The notes: a model not told the origin generated them from the letters alone. Counted from the stretch's first letter, positions 7,797 to 27,956 are shown. The stretch is DNA of 44,758 bases from Acidobacteriota bacterium (GCA_016191015.1 JACPPM010000192.1:1-44758); one strand, 5' to 3'. Program-made: numbers and translations.

Positions 7797-7836
7797 GCCT
7801 ACCTCCTCAGCCTTCCATTGTTCGCGGCGACCCGAT

Positions 7837-9204: not shown

Positions 9205-9304
9205 TTCATCCTCCACTGCTTGATAAACCGTCCTCTGGGAACCGTCTCTCGAAATTCATTGACTGCGGAAAGCAGGAAAGCACGTTCCCCAACTCGCGTC
9301 ACGG

Positions 9305-9476: not shown

Positions 9477-9505
9477 TAGTTTCGCCAGAACGGCATTCCT
9501 TCCAC
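9477..9505 (-). promoter_or_regulatory. Conserved 29-nt box A, proposed ECF promoter of unit A
   Basis: In minus-strand orientation the site reads GTGGAAGGAATG, then CCGTT, then CTGGCGAAACTA. Boxes at 16144 and 27879 have the same length and match at almost all positions outside the short spacer. An A-rich tract (plus-strand T-run 9518-9525) lies just upstream and could serve as an UP element. GGAA at the -35 side and CGAAAC at the -10 side fit ECF-type promoters, although the spacing is a little short for the sigma-E pattern. Confidence 0.7.
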
Positions 9506-9614
9506 ACTATTGCGGAATTTTTTTTGAAAAGGGACTCACCGCAGACAAACCTGGAAGCTTGAAGCGAAAGGACGAGTCCGGGCCGGTGGCGCGGGAGGTC
9601 GTTCTTGTGAGAAG

Positions 9615-9794
9615 TTGAAAATCGAAGACGGGCCCTTAGCCGGCGAGAAAGACCACGCCGACGGGACTTTCCGCCTCCCCACGAGTCCGACGAAGGACGC
9701 AGATGGGAAGCTCCGGAACATCAATACCTTGGCGCGGCACTGCAACCAACTCCGCTCGGCGATGATCCGGGCTCACCGCGAGCAGTGGCTTTAG
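9615..9794 (+). CDS. Possible small plus-strand ORF (59 aa)
   Basis: Reading from TTG 9615, this frame gives a 59-residue peptide with a protein-like pattern (ends LARHCNQLRSAMIRAHREQW). It opposes the surrounding minus-strand operons and lies between the end of unit B and box A. No good ribosome site or ATG is visible, and the frame stays open upstream to about 9530, so it could also be the 3' remnant of a larger lost gene. Confidence 0.3.
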   Translation: MKIEDGPLAGEKDHADGTFRLPTSPTKDADGKLRNINTLARHCNQLRSAMIRAHREQWL

Positions 9795-9830
9795 CCCCAA
9801 GACCGGCAGCGCCCCGCCTGAAGGGCCTGC

Positions 9831-11783
9831 TCACGTACCCGCTCTGGGACCGTAGATGGCACGGACCGCGGCGCGAATGCGCGTATTCTCTTCCGCGGCT
9901 TGGTGGATGATGTTCGTGCCATCGTCCCGCGAACAGACGCCGGCGTAGAGTCCGGCGAAGGTAAAGAAGAGATTGATTGAGGTGGAGACCCTGTGCCATT
10001 GCAGCGGAGTCGCAGGATTGCTCGCGACTCTGACTTGGACGCTTTCCACCGGCCCACCGAGCGGTGGGAAGAGGTTCGCGTCTTGGTCATCGAGCAGCAT
10101 TTCGATCCTCTGCCCGACTGCATTCGGATCGAGGGGTGCAACCAAACCGAAGGTGTAGTGAGGTGCAAACCAGGGATCGGAGCCATAGCCCGGAGCCGTG
10201 AAGACTGGATCGCATGCGGAGCTTGTGGTGCCGACACCCGCTTCCAGGTACGTCGTCTTTCCGTCTTTCCAGCGAATGATCTCGACTGGATCCAATCCCC
10301 ACCATAGCTTCGACGTCGTGAAGGCCTTTTGGTTGCTGAGATGACGCCGGCGCAGCTTGCTCCAGTCAACATTGCACCGATCCTTGCCCGGCGTACCGAA
10401 CTCCGAAGCCCACAGTCCGGCCATTTCGTAAAGGAAAGCGCGACCACAGTACGGCTCCGGGACACACGCATAGCTCGCCGGCGGCAGGGAAGGGTCCTTG
10501 AGAGCTCGCAGCAACAGGAGCGTGATCAGCTCACTGTTCCATTCTGTCCAGGTGGATGAGAGCGGCTCGCCGGAACTGTCGAAGCCATGGGTTAGCTCGT
10601 TCTTCCTATTGGTGAACGAGTCCCAGTCGATTGGATCCACGAGTCGGGCAAAGACGTCGTTCAGCCGGCTCTCCATTCCCAATCCATCGAGTGCCAACAC
10701 GGCGGGCACGAGGGCGAGAGCCGTGTCGACCGAAGAATATTCCGCATCGGGATGCGGCCGACGGTCTTCGAGGAAGTGGGGCAACAGCTTGGAACGAGAG
10801 TGCCTCTTGATCTTCAGGAGCCGATTGGTGCAGCGGGTCGCGATGTCGCGTGCCGTGTCCTTCGAGATGACGCCGAGATCGGAGGCACAGGCGGCAGCGT
10901 AGATCTGAAACCCCATCGCCGGCACGCTGTCGAAATCTCCGCCCGGGAAATTAAGATGGTCCTTAGTCGTACCGTCCTCATTCAGACATGACAAGAGGCG
11001 GCTATAGGTGACGGCCGCCCCGTACATCAGCGGGTCATCCCGCAAGATGTCGGGCACATCGCAAACAAGATCTACGGAATCGAACCACAGGTGGGAACCG
11101 TCGCCGGGCTGTGATTCCACAACGATGTTGAGCAACTTGACACGCCCGTACAGGCTGGCGGGAAGGTCCACGACGTCGTCCACGAATTCATTCGGACTGG
11201 TGGTTGAGCGTGGAATCGGTGCGATCGCATGGCTCTCGTCGGCGCGCTTGAGCTCCAACTTCCACGTTCCAACACCCTTCACGCGTACGCGCACACCCGT
11301 CACGCGAACCCGGAACGGCAGGAGGATCTGTCGAGGCATTGGATCTTTGAGATCGATCGTCAGCTTCTTCTCGCCGGAAGTTCCGACAAGGCTGATCCAT
11401 CGCCCGTGCCAAGAGGTGCCGGTGCTGTCCTGTTTGGCCCAAACCTCCCAGAGTCCGGACCCGTTCTTGTTCAGCTCGTAGCCATGTAGAGGCAGGTGGC
11501 TCGAGTCGCCCATGTCACCGTGGTCGGTGTTGATATCTGTGTAATACCCGAAGTCCCCATCTTCTGACCAGTTGAAACTGATGAGAGGAGATAGCATCCT
11601 ATTGTCAGAGCGGGCGATATTGGTTGAGACTGGACCTTGCCACGCAGATGCAGCGTGACCCTCCGAAAGGACCAGTGCTGCCAGCAGGGTCAGGCAAGAG
11701 GCTCGCACTCGATGGCGTCCGGGGATAATGCCCATCGATTGTGCTGATTCCTGCTGTCTCAGATAGAGATCCGTGGTCATCAT
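9831..11783 (-). CDS. Secreted glucoamylase-like (alpha/alpha barrel) protein
   Basis: ATG 11783 follows AAGGAGG at seven to eight bases, giving about 650 residues. A signal peptide follows a longish N-region (SCLTLLAALVLSEGHAASAW). Residues ~45-250 look like a carbohydrate-binding beta-sandwich, ending near HLWFDSVDLVCD. The C-terminal half has the signature of the glucoamylase-like domain: YSSVDTALALVPAVLALDG, TWTEWNSELITLLLL and FGLVAPLDPNA. The family acts on beta-linked glucans in several characterised cases, but the substrate here is unknown. It is the last gene of unit B, and it is odd to find an exported sugar hydrolase behind a helicase. Confidence 0.68.
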   Translation of the reverse strand: MMTTDLYLRQQESAQSMGIIPGRHRVRASCLTLLAALVLSEGHAASAWQGPVSTNIARSDNRMLSPLISFNWSEDGDFGYYTDINTDHGDMGDSSHLPLHGYELNKNGSGLWEVWAKQDSTGTSWHGRWISLVGTSGEKKLTIDLKDPMPRQILLPFRVRVTGVRVRVKGVGTWKLELKRADESHAIAPIPRSTTSPNEFVDDVVDLPASLYGRVKLLNIVVESQPGDGSHLWFDSVDLVCDVPDILRDDPLMYGAAVTYSRLLSCLNEDGTTKDHLNFPGGDFDSVPAMGFQIYAAACASDLGVISKDTARDIATRCTNRLLKIKRHSRSKLLPHFLEDRRPHPDAEYSSVDTALALVPAVLALDGLGMESRLNDVFARLVDPIDWDSFTNRKNELTHGFDSSGEPLSSTWTEWNSELITLLLLRALKDPSLPPASYACVPEPYCGRAFLYEMAGLWASEFGTPGKDRCNVDWSKLRRRHLSNQKAFTTSKLWWGLDPVEIIRWKDGKTTYLEAGVGTTSSACDPVFTAPGYGSDPWFAPHYTFGLVAPLDPNAVGQRIEMLLDDQDANLFPPLGGPVESVQVRVASNPATPLQWHRVSTSINLFFTFAGLYAGVCSRDDGTNIIHQAAEENTRIRAAVRAIYGPRAGT

Positions 11784-11847
11784 GATTTCACCTCCTTCGA
11801 ACGCCGGCATCAAGGCGTGCGGCCACCCTCTGCCGTCGTCGGCGATG

Positions 11848-12693
11848 CTACTGACCGCCCGGGAGCAGTTGCTGTTTGTTGCATCCTTCAATAACTCCGA
11901 TCGTCAGCGGCTCAAAGATCACACGTGGGCGGTAGCGGTCCACCAAGTCTTCCAGACGGGCTACGTACTCGGCCTCGATGGCATCGTCGCCCTTCAGGCC
12001 CTTCGGCGCCTGGCCGAGGAGCCGGGCATCCTTGCCCGAGTTTGTAGTGTAGAGCCTCTCCAGGCACTGGAGATCCTGTGCATAGTTCTGCCGCAGGCGG
12101 TCCACCTCGGCGACGATCGGTGAATCGTGCCGATAGGACTCCTGTGCTTCCCCCACCGCAGCCAGGAGGGTTGGCAGGGCCATGCGGAGCTCCGATCGCT
12201 TGAGGTCGAGCGGTCCGACGATCGCACCGAGCATAAACAACGGATCGTCCCCCGTCTGAAGGAAATGTTGCCCCTCATTGACCAAGAAGTACGCCGTGAA
12301 TCGCTGTCGGAGCCGGTACCCGAGCGAGAGTGACAGACCGAAAGCCAATCGTACGACCGTGGAGAGGGGACTCTGCTTCGACGCGGCCGGGAGCGTGGCC
12401 GCGAAACCAATAGGCGCGCAGGTGAGCTGCCGGGCAGCGGCCCTTTCCACCAGCCGGAGTCGATCGCGCCACTCATCTTGATCGCCTGGCTCCGACACGA
12501 CGACCATTGGCGCAATCTTGCGTCGCAGTGCCTCCCTCTCCTGCTCGCTCAGGAAGTCTTCGACGAAGTTCTTCCAGGTGTCAGAGGTGCCTTCCATTCG
12601 CCATCCCTTCGCGTCGTCGGACACCTGCGCTTCCAGATACTCACCGAGACTCCTGACCCATCGTTGCAGGAGATCAGCCGAGTCTCTACTCAT
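11848..12693 (-). CDS. Unknown protein coupled to SNF2 helicase
   Basis: A 281-residue protein. ATG 12693 has AAGGAGG five bases upstream and overlaps the end of the helicase gene by eight bases (ATGAGTAG), so the two proteins are probably made in fixed ratio. It is mostly helical and charged, with a hydrophobic centre (STVVRLAFGLSLSLGYRLRQ) too polar at its ends to call a membrane helix and a leucine-rich C-terminus. No family is recognised. Tight coupling suggests it is a helicase partner. Confidence 0.75.
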   Translation of the reverse strand: MSRDSADLLQRWVRSLGEYLEAQVSDDAKGWRMEGTSDTWKNFVEDFLSEQEREALRRKIAPMVVVSEPGDQDEWRDRLRLVERAAARQLTCAPIGFAATLPAASKQSPLSTVVRLAFGLSLSLGYRLRQRFTAYFLVNEGQHFLQTGDDPLFMLGAIVGPLDLKRSELRMALPTLLAAVGEAQESYRHDSPIVAEVDRLRQNYAQDLQCLERLYTTNSGKDARLLGQAPKGLKGDDAIEAEYVARLEDLVDRYRPRVIFEPLTIGVIEGCNKQQLLPGGQ

Positions 12694-14836
12694 CCAGCCT
12701 CCTTCGGCGTGGCTTCCATTGCCGGCTTGCTGCCGCTTCCGTCGGATCGAGGTCGGCTCCAAACTGTCGGAAGCGACGGCGGAGGTCATCCTCGTTCTCG
12801 CTGCTCAGGATGATCTGGCCGATGCCGAGGACATCCTCAGGGGTCGCGTATCGGGAATGGATCCCCTCCAGTTGGAAGATCCCCGGAATCACTCGGCCCA
12901 ACACGTCCTCGCAGACGTTCAGTTTCTCGCGGAGTGCCTGATAGACGTACTCCTCGATCGTGCCCCGGGTGATGTAGTTTTCAATGATGACGGTCCTGCT
13001 CGCTTGGCCGATCCGATCGACACGGCCGATCCGCTGCTCCACACGCATCGGGTTCCACGGAAAATCGAAGTTCACGACCACGTGACCGTCCTGGAGGTTC
13101 AGCCCCTGGCCACCGGCGTCTGTGGAAATGAACCAGGCGGCGTGCTTGGACTTCCGGAACCGCTCGATCTGGTGCTTCTTGTCCTCCTGAGACAGGCCGC
13201 CGTGATAAGAAATGATCTGGGGTTTGCGAAGGATGCCCAACTCGCGGAGCACCGGCTTCCCGAGTTGTCGGAGCCGAGAGTCAATCGCCTTCTGGGTTTC
13301 GCGGAATTCCACGTAAACGATGACGCGTCCAAAGCGGCGGGCGAGCAGCGGCAGCTGCTCCATCAAGTGATCGGTCTTCTGATGTTTGCCGGCACCCCAG
13401 TCCGCTGTCTCGTAGCGAGTGGCGATTTCCGCCAGCCTCCGATCCAATGCCTGGAGATCGTCGGCTGCGCGCGTTGCCGACGCGAGTTGTGTCACTCTCT
13501 TGCGGAGGGGACCGGCGAGGGTCTTGAGCGCGGCACGCGGATGGCTTGCGAGCTCGCGAAGAACCAGCATCGAGATGAGGACGAGCTGAGAGACGGCTTC
13601 CTCTCTGCCCGATGGTCTGCGGAGGAAGTTCGCGGAGCCGAGGTGCCAGCGATAGATGCCGCGCAGCAGCGAGAGCACATTGTCGTAGAGATCACGCTCG
13701 TCATCAGAGCGCTCCACGATCTCCACAGTCTCGATCTGTCTCCGCGGGAAGCTAAGATCAGTCTCATGCCGCTGGCGCTGATTCAAGACCGCCGTGAGCT
13801 TCGACTGGAGGTCTACGGCGTTTGCGATCTGTCGATCGTCTCGCATGAAGTTCTCGGCAAAGACCGCCTTCTGGCCAAGGTGACCGGGCCGTACAATGTT
13901 GATCTGATGGAAAATGTCGTACCCGCTGTTGTGGACCGGCGTCGCCGTCAGCAGCAGGCGAAACCGGGCGCGCAGGGCGTAGACGAATCGGTATCGCGCC
14001 GTGTCATCGTTGCGGAGCCCGTGCCCCTCGTCCACCAGCAGCAAGCCCCATCGCCGCGAACGGAGAATCTTCGCCCGGCGTTCTTCCTTCGCTGTGTCGA
14101 TGGATAGGAGCAGGTAGGGATCGGACTTGAGCGCCTCAGGCCTATAGCGGCCCTCCTCCTTCGTGATCTCCAAGTTCGACCACGCCGCGATTTCACCGGC
14201 CCACTGACTGCGCAGGTTCGACGGCACCAGGATGAGGCAGGTCAGCACGGGGTCGCGCCGCAGCAGCTCAGTGAGCACGAGGATCGCGGTAATGGTCTTG
14301 CCGAGCCCGACCTCATGGATCATGATGCCGTTCCCGAGCATTCGTTCGACGATTCTCTGCGCCTCCTCGATCTGATGGCGGAAGGCGGTCTGGCTCCGCT
14401 CGACGTCGCCGTGTGAGGAGAGGAAATGTCGCGGGCGGGCTTCAGCGTAGGCGTAGGCAGTCTCGATTAGAGCGGCCTGCCGGGCCGAGGAGACATCAGA
14501 CCGCAGCAGATCAAAAAGTGCCTTGTCCTGGGGGACCTCCGCCGGTTCGGCATCGATCACGACCTCGTGATGTTTGCGACGGTGCAGTTCCCGGCGGACG
14601 GCACGGGCCAGGCTCGAATATTCGATCTCCTTTTGCGTCCAGTCAAGTCCCCACCAGGCACAGTCGTCCAGGAGCTCGCGCCGCGTGACGTCTTGCAGAG
14701 ATGTCATGAAGCCATCGATGGAGACCATGTCGCTCGCGCTGAACCGGCCGAGAGCGCGTAGATAGGCCCCGAGGCGTGACAGGGGAATGTCACGGCCGGC
14801 CGGACTACGTCGTTCTTCCAGAATGAGATGTGGCAT
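12686..14836 (-). CDS. SNF2/RapA-like superfamily 2 helicase
   Basis: A 716-residue ATPase. Motifs in order: Walker A HEVGLGKT (174-181), DEGH (269-272), LLTATP (295-300), then the helicase C domain with YHGG, STDAGGQGLNLQ (571-582) and RVEQRIGRVDRIGQ (598-611). The layout matches SNF2-type DNA translocases such as RapA and the helicases of several defence systems. The ~150-residue N-terminal region is unassigned, and there is no nuclease domain. ATG 14836 follows GAGG and overlaps the upstream membrane gene by 32 bases. It presumably remodels nucleoprotein together with the adjacent unknown gene products (inference). Confidence 0.95.
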   Translation of the reverse strand: MPHLILEERRSPAGRDIPLSRLGAYLRALGRFSASDMVSIDGFMTSLQDVTRRELLDDCAWWGLDWTQKEIEYSSLARAVRRELHRRKHHEVVIDAEPAEVPQDKALFDLLRSDVSSARQAALIETAYAYAEARPRHFLSSHGDVERSQTAFRHQIEEAQRIVERMLGNGIMIHEVGLGKTITAILVLTELLRRDPVLTCLILVPSNLRSQWAGEIAAWSNLEITKEEGRYRPEALKSDPYLLLSIDTAKEERRAKILRSRRWGLLLVDEGHGLRNDDTARYRFVYALRARFRLLLTATPVHNSGYDIFHQINIVRPGHLGQKAVFAENFMRDDRQIANAVDLQSKLTAVLNQRQRHETDLSFPRRQIETVEIVERSDDERDLYDNVLSLLRGIYRWHLGSANFLRRPSGREEAVSQLVLISMLVLRELASHPRAALKTLAGPLRKRVTQLASATRAADDLQALDRRLAEIATRYETADWGAGKHQKTDHLMEQLPLLARRFGRVIVYVEFRETQKAIDSRLRQLGKPVLRELGILRKPQIISYHGGLSQEDKKHQIERFRKSKHAAWFISTDAGGQGLNLQDGHVVVNFDFPWNPMRVEQRIGRVDRIGQASRTVIIENYITRGTIEEYVYQALREKLNVCEDVLGRVIPGIFQLEGIHSRYATPEDVLGIGQIILSSENEDDLRRRFRQFGADLDPTEAAASRQWKPRRRRLDE

Positions 14837-15290
14837 GGATCCTCAACCATGCTTTCGCTTGCTGCCAAAGCATGAAGAAGTTGACGGTCGGCCCAACCCC
14901 TCTGGCCATGTAAGCGAGCAAGTTGAGACCGAACCACACCCAGCTCAGGCAAAGCTGCCATAGAGCCAGCGGCTCGGGTTGCTCACCCTGTGCCGAAGTG
15001 AAAATTTCCTCGGGACCGACGAATAGGACTACTACGATTGTGGCGAGAAACGCGACGTTTAGGAAGTGGAGAAGAAACATCCAAATCGAGAAAAGTTGCC
15101 CGGAAAAGGGTTTGAGCTTCTTCGCCACGTACTCACTCTCCGGAGCGTTCTCTGACCAATCCGGCTTGATCGCGTCGCGCAGTTGCGCGGCTAGGTCCTG
15201 CATCTCCTTCCGCTCGAGGAGAGCCCAAAGGACGGCCCAGCCCGTGCTGTTCAGGACAAGGCCGAACAGTGTGATCAGGTCAACCTTCAT
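14805..15290 (-). CDS. Three-helix membrane protein
   Basis: A 161-residue protein from ATG 15290 (the frame is open to 15332). Membrane helices lie at ~4-26 (LITLFGLVLNSTGWAVLWAL), ~68-91 (FLLHFLNVAFLATIVVVLFV) and ~108-129 (LCLSWVWFGLNLLAYMA), with a charged ~40-residue loop between the first two. It overlaps the upstream gene by 11 bases and the helicase by 32. A membrane protein between an unknown cytoplasmic protein and a helicase suggests a membrane-tethered complex or effector, as in Zorya-like systems, but no sequence relationship to ZorA/B is apparent. Confidence 0.75.
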   Translation of the reverse strand: MKVDLITLFGLVLNSTGWAVLWALLERKEMQDLAAQLRDAIKPDWSENAPESEYVAKKLKPFSGQLFSIWMFLLHFLNVAFLATIVVVLFVGPEEIFTSAQGEQPEPLALWQLCLSWVWFGLNLLAYMARGVGPTVNFFMLWQQAKAWLRIHATSHSGRTT

Positions 15291-16101
15291 ACCCTGCCTC
15301 GCTCGGGATCTCATAGATACTGAAGAGCTCATCCCTGATCTTGTTGTCCTTCACCACGTCGACCACGTTCTTATGCACCCAAAGTGTGTTGTCCGTCTTA
15401 CTGATCAAGGCCGCGTCGCGAAGGGGGACCTTTTCTCGTAGCCGAAGCTCTTCGATCAGGGAGTTAGCATCGAGGAGGTACCGACGGGAAGGCACGCGAA
15501 AGATCGGTCCATATGCTCTGTTGAGCTCGTACTCCCTCTCGATCATGCGGTGGACCGGATCCAGCCCGCGCAGGATGCGATAGATCCGGCGGAGAGCGAT
15601 CGGGAAAAGAAGCGCTTTGCGGAACCGGGCAATGAAGTCGGATGCCATGTACGAAGCACGGAGCTTTGTCGTGTTGAAGATCAGTGCAAGATCGTCGTCG
15701 TCGGGGAGCTGGAACGCCCAGATGTATTCCACGTATTGGCGCATGCGCCAGAGAAGAAGCTCACGGGGGGTGATGAAAGGTAGTCTGCCGTTCAGCCACA
15801 GGCCATACTCGCGTTGCGACACCATCACCAGTCGCTCGCGCACGAACTTGAGCAGGAACGTGCGCTTGGCGGTCTCGTCCGCATCGGGCTGGTACGCCGC
15901 CTTCATTGAGGCGATCGTGCACTGAGGGCGCGCGTCCTCGGGAATGCTGTTGGCGAACACGAGAAGGACGTTGTCCAATATCTCGGGGACGACCGGTTCC
16001 TTGAGACGTAGAAAGTTCTCTGCCTCTGCCCGCAGGGACTCCTCTTCCGCTTCCCTCTCTTTGCCTTCGCGAGGTCCCTCGCTTTTCTTCTGTCTGGTCA
16101 T
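15280..16101 (-). CDS. Unknown soluble protein, first gene of unit B
   Basis: A 273-residue protein with a very charged N-terminus (~1-30, rich in K, E and R), then an all-helical body with aromatic-rich stretches (YVEYIWAFQLPDDDDLALIF) and a C-terminal segment NTLWVHKNVVDVVKDNKI. No signal peptide or membrane helix. ATG 16101 has GGAGG six bases upstream and lies 43 bases beyond the conserved box B, giving a normal 5' leader. No family is recognised. Confidence 0.78.
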   Translation of the reverse strand: MTRQKKSEGPREGKEREAEEESLRAEAENFLRLKEPVVPEILDNVLLVFANSIPEDARPQCTIASMKAAYQPDADETAKRTFLLKFVRERLVMVSQREYGLWLNGRLPFITPRELLLWRMRQYVEYIWAFQLPDDDDLALIFNTTKLRASYMASDFIARFRKALLFPIALRRIYRILRGLDPVHRMIEREYELNRAYGPIFRVPSRRYLLDANSLIEELRLREKVPLRDAALISKTDNTLWVHKNVVDVVKDNKIRDELFSIYEIPSEAGYEG

Positions 16102-16143
16102 CTTCGTCCTCCGCCTCCAGAGTGTAGCGTTTCCTCATCTCCC

Positions 16144-16172
16144 TAGTTTCGTCAGGAAGGCATTCCTTCCAC
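16144..16172 (-). promoter_or_regulatory. Conserved 29-nt box B, proposed ECF promoter of unit B
   Basis: In gene orientation: GTGGAAGGAATG, then CCTTC, then CTGACGAAACTA. It differs from box A mainly in the spacer and has CTGA instead of CTGG before CGAAAC. An A-rich tract (complement of the T-run near 16183-16191) lies upstream. The distance to the ATG of the first gene is 43 bases, normal for a promoter. Confidence 0.72.
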
Positions 16173-16574
16173 TTCGGTTTGACTTTTCTTTGTCGACGGA
16201 AACCCCCTCGGCGCCGGCGAGTTCCCAGCAGAGGCCGGCACTTAGGGTGCTTCCTCTCTTGCAGGACGCGGGGAATCGCGCAGATCTGAACAGCCAGCCG
16301 ACCTTCTTCACCTCCGCGTCCGGATGGTGCCACCGTGCTCGCGCATGCCACGGCTCTCCGCTTCCCTCCGGCCAGGCAGGGCGCCTACGGCGGCCTTGAC
16401 ATGCCCTCCGCTCGGTGTCGGTGCAAGAACGCGGAGGCGAAAGAAATCGGATGCGCGGGCTCGTGTCGGCGACATGTTCAGATTCGCTCGGTTTGTGGTG
16501 AACGTCGACATCCTCTACTGGTACAGGTGAGAACTCAAGAAGCTACTGAGGACGAGGTCGTCTGCACGGATGGC
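16173..16574. other. Intergenic region between unit C and box B
   Basis: About 400 bases separate the end of the STAND gene from box B. A 67-codon minus-strand frame (16308-16511) is present but has a ribosome-site sequence jammed against its ATG and R/P-rich composition, so I do not call it as a gene with any confidence. No terminator hairpin with a T-run is seen. Confidence 0.45.
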
Positions 16575-19500: not shown

Positions 19501-21191
19501 TCCACTCGACCCTCATCTACTAGTCGCGTGAGCCATCCTGCCGCCTCGAGATGGCTCTGGATTTCGTCAGTGATACCAACCTCCGCGAGAGCAGTCTGAG
19601 TCCAGGGGTAAGAGGTCTTCGGGTCGAGTATCGTGAGCGCAAGAGCACCGAGGCGTGCCGCGGAACCGGGGAGGATCGGCCCCCGACGGTACTCTTCTAT
19701 GCGGCCCCAGAACTTCTCAATGATCTGATGCTCCAAATTGGGGTGCCATCCCTCCGACTCGGCAAGATCACAAAACAGCTTCGCAAGGAGTGGTCGTCGG
19801 AGAGTGTTGTTCAGCCTCAGCGGAAGACGCGTCCAGTCGTGGCCGTTGAGTTCGAGATAGACATGCATTTCTTGGTTGGTAAAGTCGTCGACTCTGAGAA
19901 GAGACGCCTGTTCGGGATGGGACCTCGCTACTGCCCGACCGATCTCCAAGGTTGTGCCCAATCCCAGGTGGAATCCCGGCCAATCCGAGGTTCTTTCGAC
20001 GAGAGCGTGGGCCTCCTCGGGGTCTCGCACATCATCAAGAAGGACTGTTACTGAAGGCGTCTGAGTGAGGCCGCCTGCCGAGGCTAATCGAGCGGGTAGC
20101 TCGTGCAGCGGTGGGGATGCGGCGCGACCGAGCATTTCTTGCCAGATGACTCTTGCCGCTTCATTGAGGTCGTCATCGACGTTACCGGTGGCCCTGACGA
20201 AAACCACTAGACTGCCGGGCGCACTCATCACCTTGCCTACGGCACAGAGACGCCATGTCTTCCCTTGCCCGCTCTCGCCAGCGACCACCAGCACGGACGT
20301 AGAGGCTGACCAAGTCGGCTGAGGCCGCACGTCCATTTCCGGACGGTAGTGATTGCGTCGAAAGGACCTTTCCAACCATCGGATTTGGGTCTCGCTTAGC
20401 CTAGCTAGGTCACCGAGGGATTGTCCCGTCAGCCCAACCTTCGAGAGCAACTCCTGCGCCGTGACCCGAGTCTCACCTCTCCCCCCCAGTTCCAGGATGA
20501 GGCCGCAGAGTTCCCTGCGCTTCACATCTATATCTTCCCGAAATGTTATGAGCTGTGACAGTAGGCCCCCGATATCTCGCTCAAGATCTGCGATGGTGCG
20601 CTGACCATGGAACTTGAACCGGGAGAGCAAGTGCCACAGCTTTCGATATGTGACTTGAGACGACTCTCCGTAGACGCGATCCCCTAGGACCTCCCTCACG
20701 CGATCAGCTATCCATATGAAGAAATCACGCTCTGTCTGCTTCACTCCGTTCCCGAACTCCTGAAGAGTCTTAGGATCCAGGGCGGAGAGCCCATCGTCTG
20801 GAACCATCTGGCAAAGTTGTTCGAAGAACTGCATTCCGTTGGTCCATTGACCCCTGCGCCCTTCGGTGACAAACCTATACTCGACCAAATCACCCAGATT
20901 CGAGTCATCCACGGCCAGGTATAGATCCGGCAAAACTCTTTCCACAAGATCGACCAGGGACCAAGTTCCCTGCGAGGACTTCGCTTTCCACTGCTCGACG
21001 ATGCGTCGGTGAGGACTCTGCACCTGGATGTCGCCGCCGCCGTGTCGGGGCTCGAGTATGAGCGAGGTGCTCTCAATCTCGCCGGTGTCGGTCACCGGCA
21101 AGTCAACGCAGAGGTAGGCCGCCCAGTGGATACTCCCCAGAATCTGGTAGAGGATGCCATAGATCGCGGCAGATCCTCCGGATTGCGGCAC
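16575..21191 (-). CDS. STAND-type NTPase with Cap4/DUF4297-like nuclease N-terminus and helical repeats (Avs-like)
   Basis: A 1538-residue protein starting at GTG 21191 behind GGAGGAGG. Residues 4-20 (GGSAAIYGILYQILGS) and GGDIQV at 52-57 followed by VEQWKAK (65-71) look like a PDDEXK nuclease of the DUF4297/Cap4 kind, with D54 and Q67-x-K69 as likely catalytic positions. A P-loop follows, Walker A GESGQGKT (305-312) and Walker B VTVLLDD (381-387). The remaining ~1000 residues contain HEAT-like helical repeats (for example VGALWVLGLSGRKDA, LVREAAAEMAG). This nuclease-NTPase-repeat order is that of Avs antiphage sensors, which recognise a phage protein with their repeats and then cut DNA. The ligand here is unknown. 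It ends unit C. Confidence 0.82.
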   Translation of the reverse strand: MPQSGGSAAIYGILYQILGSIHWAAYLCVDLPVTDTGEIESTSLILEPRHGGGDIQVQSPHRRIVEQWKAKSSQGTWSLVDLVERVLPDLYLAVDDSNLGDLVEYRFVTEGRRGQWTNGMQFFEQLCQMVPDDGLSALDPKTLQEFGNGVKQTERDFFIWIADRVREVLGDRVYGESSQVTYRKLWHLLSRFKFHGQRTIADLERDIGGLLSQLITFREDIDVKRRELCGLILELGGRGETRVTAQELLSKVGLTGQSLGDLARLSETQIRWLERSFRRNHYRPEMDVRPQPTWSASTSVLVVAGESGQGKTWRLCAVGKVMSAPGSLVVFVRATGNVDDDLNEAARVIWQEMLGRAASPPLHELPARLASAGGLTQTPSVTVLLDDVRDPEEAHALVERTSDWPGFHLGLGTTLEIGRAVARSHPEQASLLRVDDFTNQEMHVYLELNGHDWTRLPLRLNNTLRRPLLAKLFCDLAESEGWHPNLEHQIIEKFWGRIEEYRRGPILPGSAARLGALALTILDPKTSYPWTQTALAEVGITDEIQSHLEAAGWLTRLVDEGRVEMWHNRLLVWSIAKGLIEQRRNNSITTSQLVERVRSIDEMPARRELLITDRLLEDLVWILCDRRMQLIPDALSLIETYEARYPDWTYKNLLPRLGSRMIPLLESRLRNVTDRTEHVCVYLIASTMHLIAEWEQEPVLRAALDWLFDPHEVMQEASMLVLAKHGVGDESILDRLWKIHSRNAAGLESEQGQEWVHRHLMSWGALRACIQENPGWLDGELSNSEPSSPLLDQLAFLLASMPMPIGSEMWQKHRDRLLGNPRDEALRPLCRCIRRYGDATDVARLSGWMKHEAGLVAAEALAAAARISPAWTIESLPGMNRNMLRFFVKWWLPELLLRSPGQTQIALRLRFGFDLSDRVFLADLYQSIPDEMDDETTRVLLEALDQVIDQCLSLDPSQHDPRLSILLETFNKTWSPTTLERIWTLSGTSLEEKLLRIAVRATNIGLAGYVEAKQLGDLLFKIGGVGITQLTNSWLRRPEFQFLLAGLTWSLVNPDTDTRKILAEMATGRARPDTPEAVVVRRATLLSLASLQECDVIGRSILLYPAGYSRELKWLLAGSQPFGEDIVREAVLFLQKDDPMLRVGALWVLGLSGRKDAVSDIQQALTRIDPASSEVGVLVKILRMLGASDGVTVEFLRSQLAQPKYRRAAFKTLLEIGTDSAVGAARESVSGLRSNDVGAALRLQLLNHEWINARNNADRVSIANSIWRHIQESGRPRVTNLTLEALGDSDDRAVREFLVEEVFKGFGDSPDPDRITAAITGLAKRDVEIAFRLGTRAMEEGWEDVDPLPQLLLDLNPGQANEFLLDHMTRERQSWVRWSIGRALRHVGDHATIGRSLRKMAEAPDPLVREAAAEMAGWSSHAELDEVLRQLALEDGEFEVRRAAQRSLRCRSRLHSIRLLMNSFQGLNSPRKWVVLEGILALGDPILLDDPADQLSLTALLGERPSPMWVHAREILEKRTGQLKDRARRIDRDRGGDY

Positions 21192-21210
21192 TTGCGGGTC
21201 CTCCTCCTGT

Positions 21211-21841: not shown

Positions 21842-21882
21842 TGATTCATGTCCGTGTTCGAAGGGGCGTTGCTCCATGCACG

Positions 21883-22782
21883 TCAGACGGAGCTGAACAG
21901 TTCGTGAACGATGTGAATTGGCGTGAAACTGGCGATCTTGCGTGAGTACATGAAGTACCGTGCGCCCCTGCTGGTGTTCGGCGGGAGAATCGCTGCGCCT
22001 TTCAGAATATCTTTCGGACGGGCTTCGTGGAATAAGAGTTCGGCTTCTTTCGGAATTGGCACAGCCTCGACGTCCCAGAGAGCATCGCCACAGGTTATCC
22101 ATCCGGCCCGTGCCATGGCGCGCAACTGAAGAAGATGTCCGTAGGCGTGGTCGATTCTGCCGCGCGTCACAGTCGCGGAGAATCGTCCCCCCAGTACCGA
22201 AACAAGTGTGAGATAGGACCTCAGCACGCCAGCACCGTGGCCATCGGATGTTGCGATGTCCCGAGTCGTACACCAGTGTTCCCATACCGGTCCGCCTTTC
22301 TTGGCAAGATAAACAGGGTGATCGTAGTCTTGACGACGGTCGTCCTTCTTGGGATCGCCCGGATCTTTTGCCTTCCGATCGAGAATATGGCCGCGTGACG
22401 CTCCCTCCACGTAGCCGACGAATGAGTGTCGTTTCATTGCTTCGGAGGCGTGAGTGCTTTTCAGCGCTACAGTCTTGACGATCGGGCCATCGCAGTGGCT
22501 GAAGGTGGGCACGTAGCTCTTCCTGGCAGAATCATAAGTAATTCCGGCCCATCCCGGGCGGCCCTGTTCGTCACGAAATAGTCCGGCGGCAGCGACAAGG
22601 TGGCACAGGACGTGCCAACTCCCTCGGCCGCCTGATCTCGTTCCAGGGCCACCGCAGGTCAGCACAAGGTTCCAATCGACAAACATTCTCTGCGATTTGC
22701 CAAAGTTGGTGCGGGAGTCGACAAGATTTCCGGATACGTCGGTTTCAAATTGATACAGTCCACGTTTGGGCATGTTCTTCAC
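21883..22782 (-). CDS. Unknown protein coupled to MfnB-like enzyme
   Basis: A 299-residue product from GTG 22782, whose start overlaps the MfnB-like gene stop by four bases (GTGA); an ATG nine bases later is an alternative. It contains conserved-looking aromatic and histidine-rich motifs (SHCDGPIV, GPVWEHWCTTRD, ATSDGHGAGVLRSY, GRIDHAYGHLLQL) that could form a metal or nucleotide site, and no signal peptide or membrane helix. I do not recognise the family. The overlap implies it acts with the MfnB-like protein. Confidence 0.75.
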   Translation of the reverse strand: MKNMPKRGLYQFETDVSGNLVDSRTNFGKSQRMFVDWNLVLTCGGPGTRSGGRGSWHVLCHLVAAAGLFRDEQGRPGWAGITYDSARKSYVPTFSHCDGPIVKTVALKSTHASEAMKRHSFVGYVEGASRGHILDRKAKDPGDPKKDDRRQDYDHPVYLAKKGGPVWEHWCTTRDIATSDGHGAGVLRSYLTLVSVLGGRFSATVTRGRIDHAYGHLLQLRAMARAGWITCGDALWDVEAVPIPKEAELLFHEARPKDILKGAAILPPNTSRGARYFMYSRKIASFTPIHIVHELFSSV

Positions 22783-23954
22783 CCACGCTTTTCCCTGGGG
22801 TCGGCCTCTTCGAACTCTTGCACTAGACCCCTAACACGCGGACGCTTGATGTCGTTGCTCTTCCGAATACCGCTGCTATGACGGGCGGCACCGCCGAAAC
22901 AGATGAGATCGACTCGTGATTTGACGTAAGGCTTGATTTCAGCACATCGGATCGACCCCGCAATCCAGAACTCGATGCCTTTGTGGTGGGCTGTGTTGGC
23001 CAGTTCCAGCGTATCATTCTCCGAGTAATAGTCCCGGTAACGGCGCCCGGCATGCTTTTCGAAAGTGTCGATCAAGATTCCCTGCCACTTCGCCTTGGAT
23101 GTGAGTTCGATCGCGCGATGAGCAATTTCCATGGGGCGATCACCGTTTGACTCTACGCCGATATCAGGGAAAAACACGGCGACGAGTGGATAACGAGGGG
23201 GATCGTTCAGCGGCTTGGGAAGGAGCCTTTGCGCGGTCGCTTTGTCAACGAAAGAACGCACGAGCTTCATCTGGCGAGAAACCTCGGCGCCTGCCATATC
23301 TTGTTTTGTGATGTCAAGATTGGCGAATCCGACCTTGATCACATCGGCACCGGCATGGATGGCCGCCACGACCTTCGAAGCAGTGAGGGCGGCAGTGGAA
23401 CGTGTATCCACTTGCCCGGTCTTCGCGGACCGAACAATCTGGGGACTTTCGGAAACATTGGTCGAGACATAGACATATTCACCAATCTGTTTGCGGATGG
23501 AGAAGATTTCGTCAACCGACGCAGGTCCTAACGCCTGCTCAATGTGTTCGACATCCACGACGACGCGATCGTATGCGACTAGAGTGGGGATCTCCTGACC
23601 TTCAAAGCCGCTGATCAGACAGAGGGAGTTCACCGGGCGGGGGTTCGCCGAGCCGGTCCAGGCGCTCATCCGGAAACCGTGTCGGTGATGTGAACCCCGT
23701 CCAGATGCGTCGATGGCCGCGCGACGTAGCTCGAGAAGTTTGCGGCCTCCTGGATCCACGTACCGGAGTGCTTCGTTGATTGTTTTCCAGCGACGCTTGT
23801 TATCCCGGGAAATCCGCTGAATTTCGCGGATGACTTGGCTTCCCGCATCGATGGCCGCTTGGAGTGCCAAGCCGCTGTTTTCAGGGGTTCCGACTTTGAG
23901 AAGAATGCTGAGATCGGTAGGGCCACGTTTGACGAGATACTTGTGTCTGGGCAT
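22779..23954 (-). CDS. MfnB-like (5-formylfuran-3-yl)methyl phosphate synthase-related TIM-barrel protein
   Basis: A 391-residue protein from ATG 23954 (AAGGGG five bases upstream). The C-terminal ~240 residues match the MfnB/UPF0264 barrel, with HAGADVIKVGFA (~200-211), GILIDTFEKHAG (~292-303), IAGSI (~331-335) and LICFGGAARHS (~350-360). MfnB converts two glyceraldehyde-3-phosphate to the furan precursor of methanofuran using a Schiff-base lysine. Here the N-terminal half (~150 residues) is an unusual extension, and the expected first lysine site is not clear, so activity may differ. It sits among genes for a modified peptide and a STAND sensor, with no other methanofuran gene in view. Confidence 0.75.
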   Translation of the reverse strand: MPRHKYLVKRGPTDLSILLKVGTPENSGLALQAAIDAGSQVIREIQRISRDNKRRWKTINEALRYVDPGGRKLLELRRAAIDASGRGSHHRHGFRMSAWTGSANPRPVNSLCLISGFEGQEIPTLVAYDRVVVDVEHIEQALGPASVDEIFSIRKQIGEYVYVSTNVSESPQIVRSAKTGQVDTRSTAALTASKVVAAIHAGADVIKVGFANLDITKQDMAGAEVSRQMKLVRSFVDKATAQRLLPKPLNDPPRYPLVAVFFPDIGVESNGDRPMEIAHRAIELTSKAKWQGILIDTFEKHAGRRYRDYYSENDTLELANTAHHKGIEFWIAGSIRCAEIKPYVKSRVDLICFGGAARHSSGIRKSNDIKRPRVRGLVQEFEEADPREKRG

Positions 23955-24235
23955 GATCACCCCTTAGAAAAGTGGTTGTTCCGACGTCGGAGTGGGATAC
24001 CCCAACATGTTGCGTTCGAAAGGCGCGATGGGGTGGGATCGGGGTGGCAGTGGAGGAGGTGAAGTATGCCGAGAGGAGCACATCCCAGCAGCTCGCCACG
24101 GCTATTCCTTCGCCGTGGCTCGCCTGAGGCCGCTCTGCGCCCACGTGATGGGCGCTCCTGGCTCTCCGGTTTCGTTGCTGCCGGGTCGCCTCCCCGGTTT
24201 GAAACTACTCCCACAAAAGCGCGATCCAACACAAC
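23955..24235. other. Gap with hairpin and an uncertain 91-codon frame
   Basis: An inverted repeat of eight bases (GCCACGGC at 24095-24102, GCCGTGGC at 24112-24119) around a nine-base loop could form a hairpin in the transcript, with no following T-run. A minus-strand frame from TTG 24232 stays open to 23957; it begins three bases after the preceding gene and its stop overlaps the GTG at 23960, which is suggestive, but its arginine-rich composition and weak start make it doubtful. Confidence 0.4.
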
Positions 24236-25102
24236 CTAATGTGCATCGACCTGAATGATTTGCAGCGCGGTCGAGTATGCATGGCCCTCCACTGCATAGT
24301 AGAGTTGCAGTCGACCCGCCACAGTCGGCTGCAGGTCGTCGATGACCCATTCGATTGGCGCCCACGTGCGGACATCCCGCACCCTACTCCCGAGCACATG
24401 ATAGCCTGGTGTGAGGGGATCATCGGCCGGCATGGTCCAGAGGGGAACGCTCTTGGTTAGCTTACAGGTCGGGGGGACCAGAAGGATGATCTGCACCGAT
24501 CGAAGGCCCATGCCCTTGTGAAGAAAGGCCTTGATTCGGATCCGGGCACACTTGCCGACCTCCCATGCGGTCGAGCCAGCATCGTCAATTAGGTCAAGGT
24601 CGGGAAGTGAGAGCCGGGAAATATCCCGAAAGCTCAAGAGCGCACGCACCAAGAGCGCGATGCCTACAATGAACGGCAGAAAGACGAGAAGTCCCGCCGG
24701 AGACGGTCTAGCGGGCGGCATTGAGGCATTCCCGGCCATCTTGGAAAGAACGGCAGCGCAAATGAAAAAGCCACCCGGATAAAGTACAGCCCCTCGGACA
24801 CCTATTCTTCCCGAGGTCTGGCGGACCGCCTTCAGGGCGGCTTGGCACTCCCGTACCTCGCGGTTCATTTCGCATAGCTGTTGGTCTGGCGTACAGCTCG
24901 CCCTGAGCCCGGATTGGAGCCAAGCTATTCTCTCTGCGATCCTCTTTCGACTACGCGCAACTGAGGCACCGGCTACCGCGCGGGCGGGGCCAAGCAGCGA
25001 GAGCGAAAGAGCGCAAACGGCAACGAGGGTTGCAACAAGAGTGATGGAGAGGCGGAAAACGGTTTCATACAAAGCGGGTAGATGGCGCAGGACAGAGTCC
25101 AT
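24236..25102 (-). CDS. Membrane protein with C-terminal soluble domain
   Basis: A 288-residue protein; ATG 25102 follows AAGGAGG at six bases. Membrane helices lie at ~16-38 (ITLVATLVAVCALSLSLLG), ~104-122 (GAVLYPGGFFICAAVLSKMA) and ~136-157 (GLLVFLPFIVGIALLVRALL), with a charged helical loop between the first two containing three cysteines. The last ~120 residues form a soluble, beta-rich domain (SVQIILLVPPTCKL). No transporter family is recognised. Placed directly downstream of the precursor peptide, it could export or sense the peptide product or give immunity (inference). Confidence 0.75.
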   Translation of the reverse strand: MDSVLRHLPALYETVFRLSITLVATLVAVCALSLSLLGPARAVAGASVARSRKRIAERIAWLQSGLRASCTPDQQLCEMNREVRECQAALKAVRQTSGRIGVRGAVLYPGGFFICAAVLSKMAGNASMPPARPSPAGLLVFLPFIVGIALLVRALLSFRDISRLSLPDLDLIDDAGSTAWEVGKCARIRIKAFLHKGMGLRSVQIILLVPPTCKLTKSVPLWTMPADDPLTPGYHVLGSRVRDVRTWAPIEWVIDDLQPTVAGRLQLYYAVEGHAYSTALQIIQVDAH

Positions 25103-25177
25103 TGGGTGCCTCCTTTGTTATGTCGGCCGGCGTATGGGGCAGCAAATTTTCGCCCTGTTAGAAGACGCAACACCGAT

Positions 25178-25227
25178 TGCCTGAATGCGAACGGACCCCC
25201 GGGCAAGTCCTCGTTCGCATTCAGGCA
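25178..25227 (-). promoter_or_regulatory. 16-bp perfect inverted repeat after the precursor-peptide gene
   Basis: TGCCTGAATGCGAACG (25178-25193) is an exact reverse complement of 25212-25227, with an 18-base loop. In the minus direction it lies 19 bases after the precursor stop and before the membrane-protein gene. There is no poly-T tract, so it is not a classical terminator. Such intercistronic stems often protect the upstream message and lower expression of downstream genes, which would favour high output of a RiPP precursor. Confidence 0.7.
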
Positions 25228-25246
25228 TCGTCAAAAGCGGTTCACC

Positions 25247-25399
25247 TCATTGAAGCAGGCAACCGCAACACTGTTCGTCGTTGATGCAAACGCAGGAGCA
25301 GAGCCCTTCGCCGATCTCATTGTTTTCAGGGAACATTAGCTCGGTTTCGGCGAGGATCTGCGGGTCAGCTGGAACCAGTTGCACGTCTGGCTCACTCAT
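25247..25399 (-). CDS. Cys-rich RiPP precursor peptide (50 aa)
   Basis: The 50-residue peptide has an acidic N-terminal leader (~1-31, with ETELMFPENNEIGEG) and a C-terminal core GLCSCVCINDEQCCGCLLQ carrying six cysteines in 14 residues (34, 36, 38, 44, 45, 47). AAAGGAGG lies about nine bases before the ATG. It overlaps the end of the radical SAM/SPASM gene by eight bases. Short acidic leader, Cys-rich tail and an adjacent SPASM maturase together mark a ribosomally made, post-translationally modified peptide, most like ranthipeptide or sactipeptide precursors, where the enzyme makes thioether links to cysteine. The exact modification is unknown. The core lacks the regular spacing of the SCIFF family. 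Confidence 0.85.
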   Translation of the reverse strand: MSEPDVQLVPADPQILAETELMFPENNEIGEGLCSCVCINDEQCCGCLLQ

Positions 25400-26714
25400 C
25401 TTGTTCGCCTCCTTTCTCCCGGGTGAGTAGTGCCACAATTTGATCGTAAAGAACCGCCCGATTGAAGTGGCAGCGCGACCATCCAATCCTACGTAGGTCC
25501 GGGCAATCACCCGCGCAATGCCACCGTGCAAAGCAGGCACAGCACGCCTCAGGAACGGCGTTCAACTCAGCGATATGATTCAACCGCTCCTGATCGAGAA
25601 TGATCTTGCCCGAATTCGCCTGAATAGTTCCATAACCATAGTCCGTTCCGCCGTGATCTCGGTGGCAGGCCGTGATCTGACCATCGACACAGACGGCGAA
25701 TGAGGGGATGGTCATTGCTCCACAGTAACGTGTGATGAGTCGCTTGAGCGAAGGCCCCGACGAGGTCACTCGAATGCCAAGCTCCGCCCCTATCTCCTCT
25801 GCCTGCTTGAACTTCTCGAGGAACACGGTCAGTTCCGGAGGCTGCAAAGTCGGGGACACCAGTGCTCGGCCCAAAGGAACCAGCGGCTCGAATGCGACCA
25901 CAAATCCTCGTCCGAACTCGCAGGCAAACCGCTGGATGATCATGGGAAGGTGATCGACACTCTTGGCCGAGACGGTGCTCCGGATTCCTAGGCGCAGGGT
26001 CGGGACCGTGAGAAAGTGCCTGATGGTTTCGCACACGACAGCGTACGAACCCCGCCCCGCGCGGTTCGGCCGGTGAAGATCCTGAATGTTCTGGTCCCCG
26101 TCGAGCGAGACCGTGAGGTGGTCGAAATGGGCGGCAATAAACTGCCTGCGATCAGGACCATAATACCCGTTTGTGGTCATGGACAGGAAAAGCCGGTCAA
26201 CTCCGGAATCGGGGCTGACAACCAGATGCTTGAGTGTCACCACTGCGCGAGTGAAGAGATCCCATGGCATGGTGGGCTCCCCTCCGACGGCGAAGGAAAC
26301 CGATAGCGTCCTTCGCGGGGTTTTGGCCGCGGCGGCAGCTGCGTATTCGATCGCAGTCTGGAGGGTACTCCAATTGGCATCTCGGGGCTTGTCGGCTTCC
26401 GCGTGGCAGTAGAGGCAGGCCAATGTGCAGTTTCGGGTCAGACCGATACCAAGATGAAAAGCATTCGGGGGAGCGGCGACCGGCGCCACGGCCTTAGAGA
26501 GAGCAGCACTCAGCCGTGTGCTTATATGCGGCGGCGTTCTGCCCGTCTGAATAGCTTCGGTGGCGCTCGCGTTTAGTAGTAGCGCGAGTCGGAGGGTGGG
26601 AGCGAAGAGTACGTAGGGTGGTCTGCCTGCGGAGGACAGGAGCCAGTAGTCATGACCGTACCATTGTGCATGGGAATCACAGACTGCGGACGTCGGGTGA
26701 TCCGCCACGTTCAC
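25392..26714 (-). CDS. Radical SAM/SPASM peptide maturase
   Basis: A 440-residue enzyme from GTG 26714, chosen for the GAGGAG six bases upstream. The radical SAM cluster motif NCTLACLYCHAE gives cysteines 96, 100 and 103. A glycine-rich GGEPTMPWD and SLDGDQNIQDLHRP motif follow, as in SPASM maturases. The C-terminus holds the SPASM cysteines (CVDGQITACHRDHGG, ACCACFARWHCAGDCP, WSRCHF) that bind two auxiliary [4Fe-4S] clusters. It probably installs thioether or C-C crosslinks in the Cys-rich peptide encoded just downstream, with which it overlaps by eight bases. N-terminal residues ~1-90 may include the leader-binding domain. Confidence 0.95.
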   Translation of the reverse strand: MNVADHPTSAVCDSHAQWYGHDYWLLSSAGRPPYVLFAPTLRLALLLNASATEAIQTGRTPPHISTRLSAALSKAVAPVAAPPNAFHLGIGLTRNCTLACLYCHAEADKPRDANWSTLQTAIEYAAAAAAKTPRRTLSVSFAVGGEPTMPWDLFTRAVVTLKHLVVSPDSGVDRLFLSMTTNGYYGPDRRQFIAAHFDHLTVSLDGDQNIQDLHRPNRAGRGSYAVVCETIRHFLTVPTLRLGIRSTVSAKSVDHLPMIIQRFACEFGRGFVVAFEPLVPLGRALVSPTLQPPELTVFLEKFKQAEEIGAELGIRVTSSGPSLKRLITRYCGAMTIPSFAVCVDGQITACHRDHGGTDYGYGTIQANSGKIILDQERLNHIAELNAVPEACCACFARWHCAGDCPDLRRIGWSRCHFNRAVLYDQIVALLTREKGGEQDE

Positions 26715-26842
26715 GTCGCTCTCCTCGGAGTCTCTGGATCGCCGCGGTTGTGGGAAGCCAGAAGTGCCTTGCGACGATCTTGACGCGGGTTCACGTGAGG
26801 ATCCCAATCTGTCTCACGCGCAGAGCGCGCTGTTGCGTCCAT
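26711..26842 (-). CDS. Small ORF (43 aa) coupled to the radical SAM gene
   Basis: A charged 43-residue peptide (MDATARSARETDWDPHVNPR at its N-terminus) whose TGA overlaps the maturase GTG in GTGA form. The ribosome site is weak. If translated, it would couple the protease-maturase gap and might serve as a separate leader-recognition protein, although it is short for one. Recorded because neighbouring gene starts use the same overlap. Confidence 0.33.
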   Translation of the reverse strand: MDATARSARETDWDPHVNPRQDRRKALLASHNRGDPETPRRAT

Positions 26843-26934
26843 GACCAAGAGTCCGCCCGAGTATCCGAAGAAGGCGGATTTTCGCTATGAACAGGTGTGA
26901 TTTGACACGAGGCCCATTCAGCCAAAGTTTCGCT

Positions 26935-27819
26935 CTATCCTTCGACAAACGTGACGTTGAGGCTTCTCATGAATTCCTTGATGATCTGGATGTGCACGCA
27001 GCCGCCGACATGAAGGAATGCGCTGTCCTGCACCCGCTTCGGCAGTCCCTGCCTGCGAACCTGTTGGTCTACGTCGAAGTCAAGATCCAAGTGCCCTGTC
27101 ATGGATTGGATGCCCCAGACTCTCCCCTGTGAATCGAATGCCGGCCCGCCGCTCTGTCCGCGAAGCCCCGGGGTACTCATTTCAAAACCGATCAGTTCCG
27201 CGCCTTGCCCAATCAAGTGACGGGTAACCATCCCTTCTATGGGGAATCGGGGGGTTGTATGCTGACCGGTCTGCGTCCATTCAATCTCGTCGCGATCAGG
27301 GTCGTAGCCGAAGTCGGTGAACTCGACAAAAGGGAATCCAAGTCTGCAGAGAGATTTTCCGGGTTTCAGGGAGCCGGAGTCGGGTGCGAAAACCGGGAAC
27401 TCGGTGCAGAGCAGCTTCTCAAAGCCTTCAAACTTGAGGAGGGCAATGTCATAGGTCTTATGCCTCTGCATTGTGAGGGTTTGAAAGCTGTCTAGGCAGT
27501 CAACGAATTTCACTTTCATCTGGGCCAGTTCTCTGCGGTCCAGGTGATACTTCCGTTCGAGTTCCCGACGGACCTGCTTCGCCTTCTTTCCATCCGCATA
27601 CGCCCCGAGTTCGCCTTTGAACAGCCGATAGCGCTCGTTGATGTGGTCGGTGGCCATGATTTGGTCAGCAACATGTCCACATGTGACCGCCCAACCATCC
27701 GCGTTGACGAAGAAGATGGTGGCGGCGCCAGGCTGGACGATGGCTGAGCCGTATGTGCGTGAGATGAAGAAGATGGGACGTGTGAATTGAGCAGCTTTCT
27801 CGATTGCGTCTACGTACAT
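26935..27819 (-). CDS. Cytoplasmic trypsin-like serine protease
   Basis: A 294-residue protein with the chymotrypsin-fold triad: H49 in AVTCGHVAD, D124 in TYDIALLKF and S223 in GLRGQSGGPAF. ATG 27819 follows GGAGG at five bases and directly abuts the stop of a 14-residue leader peptide. There is no signal peptide, unlike DegP/HtrA, and no PDZ domain. An insertion at ~60-110 is long and charged. Next to a radical SAM maturase and Cys-rich precursor, it is a good candidate for leader-peptide removal, or alternatively an effector protease of a defence system. Both roles are inference. Confidence 0.88.
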   Translation of the reverse strand: MYVDAIEKAAQFTRPIFFISRTYGSAIVQPGAATIFFVNADGWAVTCGHVADQIMATDHINERYRLFKGELGAYADGKKAKQVRRELERKYHLDRRELAQMKVKFVDCLDSFQTLTMQRHKTYDIALLKFEGFEKLLCTEFPVFAPDSGSLKPGKSLCRLGFPFVEFTDFGYDPDRDEIEWTQTGQHTTPRFPIEGMVTRHLIGQGAELIGFEMSTPGLRGQSGGPAFDSQGRVWGIQSMTGHLDLDFDVDQQVRRQGLPKRVQDSAFLHVGGCVHIQIIKEFMRSLNVTFVEG

Positions 27820-27864
27820 CTATCCTCCAAAGTACTCGGAGCACTCCGTCGAAGGTCGACACAT
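27820..27864 (-). CDS. Leader peptide MCRPSTECSEYFGG (14 aa)
   Basis: A perfect AAGGAG five bases upstream of ATG 27864 initiates a 14-residue peptide whose TAG is followed at once by the ATG of the protease. It starts 15 bases from the proposed promoter box C. The strong start and TAG-ATG junction suggest translational coupling or a regulatory leader. The two cysteines are noted, but no attenuator hairpin is obvious. Confidence 0.55.
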   Translation of the reverse strand: MCRPSTECSEYFGG

Positions 27865-27878
27865 GTCTTCTCCTTGCT

Positions 27879-27907
27879 TAGTTTCGCCAGCAAGACATTC
27901 CTTCCAC
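27879..27907 (-). promoter_or_regulatory. Conserved 29-nt box C, proposed ECF promoter of unit C
   Basis: In gene orientation it reads GTGGAAGGAATG, then TCTTG, then CTGGCGAAACTA. It has the same length as boxes A and B, an A-rich tract just upstream (complement of 27919-27925), and lies 15 bases before the leader-peptide ATG. It is arranged head-to-head with the inverted copy at 27928-27956. Confidence 0.72.
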
Positions 27908-27927
27908 CCGAAACAAATGTTTTTTCA

Positions 27928-27956
27928 AGGGAAGGAATCGGCCGCTGACGAAACTA
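27928..27956 (+). promoter_or_regulatory. Inverted box D, proposed outward-facing ECF promoter
   Basis: On the plus strand, GGAAGGAAT, seven variable bases, then CTGACGAAACTA repeats the architecture of boxes A-C with the same spacing (21 of 29 positions equal to box C). Boxes C and D share an upstream region that includes the T/A-rich stretch, so they could be divergent promoters, or together one large imperfect palindrome. The first in-frame start beyond it is a GTG at 27961/27963, opening only short frames. Confidence 0.6.

Follow-up and report, generated by a model that had tools for sequence, protein, structure and literature searches.

The window analysed here, a 44,758-nt stretch of an Acidobacteriota bacterium (GCA_016191015.1) that corresponds to contig C140 of a 6.43-Mb draft genome in 349 contigs, contains gene units headed by a conserved bipartite box, one of which encodes a sigma factor of the extracytoplasmic function (ECF) type. 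A dedicated ECF sigma factor probably reads this box and controls a regulon scattered over the genome, its own unit included; the product of the gene at 4728–5396 is the most likely candidate. The timing of costly immune-system expression in bacteria is poorly known, and one of the seven boxes found in the genome precedes a type III-D CRISPR-Cas operon.

A bipartite box at seven sites

The first-pass annotation of the window had described three minus-strand boxes, nearly identical outside a short spacer, and these are present in the sequence as boxes A to C. A fourth, divergent box (D) was added on the plus strand, and the genome-wide motif search that the annotation had proposed brought the number of sites to seven, including a pair on contig C43 and the site at the promoter position of the type III-D CRISPR-Cas operon on contig C235.

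Box A, 9477–9505 (core 9477–9503), minus strand: GTGGAAGGAATGCCGTTCTGGCGAAACTA; exact match to the core pattern, profile score 39.6 bits; candidate ECF-type promoter of the unit with the sigma gene
Box B, 16144–16172 (core 16144–16170), minus strand: GTGGAAGGAATGCCTTCCTGACGAAACTA; exact match, 37.9 bits; 42 nt before the ATG of the SNF2 operon
Box C, 27879–27907 (core 27879–27905), minus strand: GTGGAAGGAATGTCTTGCTGGCGAAACTA; exact match, 46.4 bits; 59 nt before the ATG of a trypsin-like protease gene
Box D, 27930–27956, plus strand: exact match, 37.1 bits; divergent from box C
Box E, C43:5445–5471, plus strand: 128 nt before a 64-aa open reading frame (ORF)
Box F, C43:5386–5412, minus strand: divergent from box E; 130 nt before a hybrid histidine kinase gene
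Box G, C235:38242–38268, minus strand: ahead of the type III-D CRISPR-Cas operon, at 156 nt from cas10

The most constant parts of the box form the core pattern GGAAGGAAT-N10-CGAAACTA, with 17 fixed bases. This pattern has five exact sites in the genome and two with one mismatch, where chance would give approximately 0.0003 and 0.016, respectively, and the reversed pattern, used as a control, has no match in the genome at up to one mismatch. A profile built from the seven sites scores them at 37–46 bits, and the next best position in the genome reaches 12.6. When each site was left out of the profile in turn, the omitted sites still scored 27–43 bits, and every other position in the three contig stretches examined (81 kb) scored at most 8.6. 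Four of the seven sites fall within the window, which makes up 0.7% of the genome (P of approximately 8e-8 under uniform placement).

ECF-type promoters consist of conserved −35 and −10 blocks at a fixed spacing, oriented toward start codons. The boxes share this bipartite layout, with a GGAA-type −35 and CGAAACTA as the −10: invariant GGAAGGAA and CGAAACTA blocks stand at a fixed distance on either side of a variable spacer, an A/T-rich tract lies upstream, and the boxes point toward genes in every case, six of them at distances of 42, 59, 128, 130, 156 and 260 nt from the start codon. This layout suggests that the boxes are ECF-type promoters. In keeping with the definition of an ECF regulon, bipartite promoter-like sites precede the putative target operons, including the sigma gene's own unit. 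The proposal that the boxes head operons is borne out by their positions with one amendment, namely that box A lies 260 nt ahead of the first sizeable gene of its unit, with a 52-codon ORF in between. Scattering of the boxes without linkage to gene starts, which the annotation had named as grounds for abandoning a regulon, was not observed, since at least five of the seven sites are located 42–156 nt before a start codon.

The candidate sigma factor and competing explanations

The unit headed by box A (unit A) contains the following genes, and no terminator-like site was found on their strand from 9216 through 2255 until 2099.

9305–9463, minus strand: putative 52-aa ORF, starting approximately 13 nt after box A (translation)
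7837–9216, minus strand: predicted secreted protein with a bacterial Ig-like (Big_9) domain (Pfam PF17963, 1.3e-6), the first sizeable gene
6207–7796, minus strand: PhoD-like phosphatase (Pfam PF09423, 1.2e-22)
5499–6176, minus strand: protein with one N-terminal membrane helix, no family match
4728–5396 (alternative start 5348), minus strand: ECF-type sigma factor, proposed box reader (Sigma70_r2 0.0012, TIGR02937 3.1e-5, PDB SigJ 0.0033)
3351–4298, minus strand: uncharacterised protein, no family match
2255–3295, minus strand: protein with calcineurin-like phosphoesterase-type motifs (SDHHRG, GD, GNHD, GHTH) read from the sequence; no Pfam, NCBIfam or PHROG match

The sigma gene thus lies within the box-A unit, as had been claimed, with an ORF that extends to 5396; the start given previously, 5348, is a later ATG. 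Its 222-aa product has a region 2 match at residues 65–123 and a helix-turn-helix at approximately 170–200, and regions 2 and 4 alone were found, as defines the ECF type. No other ECF gene was recognised in the window. AlphaFold models of two proteins, those encoded at 5499–6176 (mean pLDDT 45) and 15280–16101 (mean pLDDT 41), were discarded as too poor.

Neither the sigma factor nor the box rises above background in a 396-genome sample of the phylum, so that the two are equally restricted. The sigma factor has no relative at E <= 1e-9 in this sample, and searches of 40 relatives, the phylum sample, viral contigs and plasmids retrieved nothing beyond distant ECF factors. The box gave five single one-mismatch matches in other genomes of the sample, near the level of the reversed control and none above chance, and no box lies upstream of two type III-D cas10 relatives from the phylum. 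Because it is encoded inside the box-A unit, has four of the seven boxes around it and matches the box in distribution, the window ECF factor is the best candidate for the reader. Of the autoregulated regulon of approximately 27 kb proposed by the first-pass annotation, the autoregulatory loop remains plausible and the clustering at the ECF gene is evident; the proposed extent was too narrow, with seven sites on three contigs.

Several observations weigh against this assignment. The sigma-70 scores of the window ECF factor are weak, below the Pfam gathering threshold, its neighbours at 5499–6176, 4386–4724 and 3351–4298 match no Pfam family, and no anti-sigma factor was recognised among them. 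A second ECF gene, in an ECF/anti-sigma pair, stands 3.7 kb away from E and F, and the genome contains several others. The hybrid kinase gene behind box F looks ordinary and has a core-like GC content at third codon positions (GC3), and a putative defence role of the window operons is suggested only by domain resemblance and by a box in common with CRISPR-Cas. Moreover, the linkage of C140, C43 and C235 depends on the assembly and binning of the draft, although the common box itself argues that the three contigs belong to one genome.

The main rival explanation accepts the boxes as ECF promoters and assigns their reading to another sigma factor, most plausibly the ECF/zf-HC2-TPR pair on C43 (L038:9145–10582, where L038 coordinates refer to a stretch of C43), the window ECF factor then being just one target in a cascade. 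Besides its proximity to E and F, this pair has better sigma-70 scores than the window ECF factor and a membrane-anchored anti-sigma-like partner. However, it has no box at its head, whereas four of the seven boxes are found at the window ECF gene. In addition, the C43 ECF factor has a 40%-identity homologue in a genome of the same family (G001) that has no box, as well as a 38% paralogue in its own genome, and therefore the C43 ECF family is not tied to the box. A reader other than the window sigma factor is accordingly considered unlikely, while deserving more attention than the remaining alternatives.

It is improbable that a conventional transcription factor common to the operons, whether an activator or a repressor, binds the box. 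Shared sites ahead of operons are also typical of a transcription-factor regulon, but the two blocks are not palindromic, do not repeat each other directly, point toward genes, keep a −35/−10-like spacing over a variable spacer and are found around an ECF gene. Least probable of all is the explanation that a mobile or duplicated element left the box behind in several places, with no regulatory role. A duplication over approximately 300 nt does relate the pairs C/D and E/F, with the peptide genes that follow D and E, and GC3 is lower in the island genes than in most genes flanking them. Conservation at A, B and G, however, is limited to the box and its A/T-rich tract, the flanks look unrelated, and blocks kept over a variable spacer resemble the outcome of selection.

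Genes behind the boxes

If the window sigma factor reads the box, the active protein would transcribe its own box-A unit, creating a positive feedback. Box B would drive the SNF2-helicase operon, and box C the trypsin/radical-SAM unit, which may extend as far as a STAND-like nuclease/HEAT gene. Two copies of a short Cys-rich peptide gene would be driven by boxes D and E, the hybrid histidine kinase gene by box F and the type III-D CRISPR-Cas operon on C235 by box G, with the effect that CRISPR-Cas would be raised together with associated putative defence or stress proteins. A wider proposal is that of a genome-wide immunity switch, in which the sigma factor amplifies itself while activating the type III-D operon in trans and, at the same time, a new defence island of several operons, comprising the STAND-like nuclease, the SNF2 helicase operon and the protease/radical-SAM genes with the Cys-rich peptides as possible substrates. 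This proposal is put forward tentatively, its prospects being slightly less than even. The proposed seven-site regulon, having a clean promoter motif and a candidate sigma factor, lends itself to direct testing. It would provide a regulator for type III-D CRISPR-Cas in this bacterium and points to several uncharacterised operons as likely partners in CRISPR immunity.

The operon behind box G was assigned to type III-D by the presence of Cas10, Csx10 and several Cas7-like genes, with arrays flanking both sides. PADLOC matches on C235 include Cas10 (4.5e-67), Cas5_IIId (2.3e-48) and Csm3/Cas7, together with two arrays, and Cas10 keeps the GGDD cyclase motif. In locus L039, two CRISPR arrays with 35-nt repeats are located at 7485–8035 and 16362–16907, both with a degenerate repeat at the low-coordinate end, suggesting that the minus strand is the one read in each. 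At L038:5958–10582, next to boxes E and F, a TPR-CHAT protein adjoins the ECF sigma factor and the zf-HC2/TPR protein.

Units B and C of the window consist of the following genes.

9831–16101, minus strand: unit B, five overlapping genes at 15280–16101, 14805–15332, 12686–14836 (SNF2 helicase; SNF2/Helicase_C), 11848–12789 and 9831–11891
26935–27819, minus strand: trypsin-like serine protease, unit C (PF13365, 5.4e-10)
25392–26807, minus strand: radical SAM/SPASM protein of the peptide-maturase type, unit C (PF04055 2.1e-12; PapB-family model 5.7e-30; SPASM TIGR04085)
21883–25102, minus strand: membrane protein, small ORF, 4-HFC-P-synthase-like protein (22779–23960; PF04476, 8.3e-17) and uncharacterised protein (21883–22782); possible continuation of unit C
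16575–21191, minus strand: 1538-aa protein, STAND-like defence candidate (HEAT_2 4.9e-14; motifs)

The genes of unit B overlap by 32–104 nt, and their best PADLOC matches are DrmD, BrxHI and HmaA; most island genes received no name from PHROGs and PADLOC. The 1538-aa protein combines an N-terminal nuclease-like motif, a P-loop NTPase core (Walker A at 305, Walker B at 381) and HEAT repeats. Unit C is interrupted by gaps of 289 nt before the membrane-protein group and approximately 285 nt before the 1538-aa gene, and therefore the genes past these gaps may have their own promoters, leaving their membership in the unit uncertain. Full-length relatives of the trypsin-like protein, with 35–54% identity, occur in a Chitinophagaceae metagenome-assembled genome and three genomes of the phylum (L041, L054, L055 and L057); at these loci, no other island genes were found nearby, and no box. 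Plasmid homologues of the radical SAM protein reach a coverage of at most 75%, and the island gene order was not seen in the two annotated neighbourhoods. The protein encoded at 22779–23960 is a divergent member of the 4-HFC-P synthase family (PF04476), clustered with the radical SAM/SPASM protein. The window also encodes a TIGR03436 VWFA protein, which by itself points to a probable acidobacterial host.

Two features follow box D.

27961–28155, plus strand: short Cys-rich peptide frame, ...WCCRAGLSC(TGA)EGPPPL, homologous to the C43 ORF L038:5600–5794 (alignment, codon comparison, 26-nt motif, translation)
28159–28172, plus strand: terminator-like hairpin that would end a short box-D transcript (scan; weak, without a long T run)

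The ORF behind box E (L038:5600–5794) encodes 64 aa, hydrophobic over an N-terminal stretch and ending in NGECCLAGLSCCEGPPK. A 26-nt core of the peptide gene occurs at only two places in the genome, behind D and behind E. In the conserved end, the two copies differ chiefly at the third positions of codons, beyond the TGA as well, and therefore the peptide was probably under selection; a structured-RNA reading of the D and E transcripts was set aside on the same grounds. The window copy lacks approximately 127 nt, including the start region, and is probably truncated or decayed. Comparison of window 28108–28155 with L038:5746–5794 revealed a TGA in the window where C43 has a Cys codon (TGT), which would be a nonsense mutation or, less likely, a selenocysteine codon. 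The leaders behind E (L038:5478–5600) and D (window 27963–28060) share a short hairpin region, GGGAGAA..GAGCC.GGCG..GCCGCC, that could be a conserved mRNA leader. An Rfam search gave no credible match around boxes D, E and G.

Relation to known CRISPR-linked sigma factors

Among the closest parallels by description is DdvS of Myxococcus xanthus, an ECF sigma factor reported to control an antiphage island that includes a type III-B CRISPR-Cas system (PMC12288465, PMC11237760). Both cases have an ECF sigma factor governing, or here proposed to govern, type III CRISPR-Cas plus further defence genes. The present case differs from what is described for DdvS in that the CRISPR-Cas system is of type III-D and located on another contig, the targets are spread over three places, none of the genes was recognised as an anti-sigma factor and the island is composed of other gene families.

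In type III-E systems, the binding motif of CASP-sigma recurs ahead of cas1 and neighbouring genes, an arrangement interpreted as positive autoregulation of defence (Strecker 2022, PMC10028731); CASP-sigma is held by Csx30 until Cas7-11-Csx29 cleaves Csx30. The likeness lies in a motif that recurs ahead of the targets, here putative, of a CRISPR-linked ECF sigma factor. Type III-E is defined by Cas7-11 (gRAMP), Csx29 and Csx30 linked to the sigma gene, and a scan of window proteins revealed no Cas gene; in contrast to CASP, the C235 operon is a Cas10-containing III-D system with separate Cas7 genes. In the CalpL-CalpT-CalpS system, a protease of the Lon-SAVED type activated by cyclic oligoadenylate acts with an anti-sigma factor and a sigma factor, and CalpS is released (PMC11229360). 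As is proposed here, that system ties type III CRISPR to a transcription-acting sigma factor, and the Cas10 described here has an intact GGDD motif, whereas none of the neighbours of the sigma gene was recognised as CalpT-like. A search for SAVED in the same genome gave no match, the control genomes being equally silent. A limited literature search gave no paper that ties a type III-D operon to a sigma factor. With DdvS, CASP-sigma and CalpS, precedents already exist for ECF control of type III CRISPR-Cas, and the present case is set apart from them by its CRISPR subtype, its scatter over three contigs, its accompanying genes and the absence of a recognisable anti-sigma factor or signal-coupled protease.

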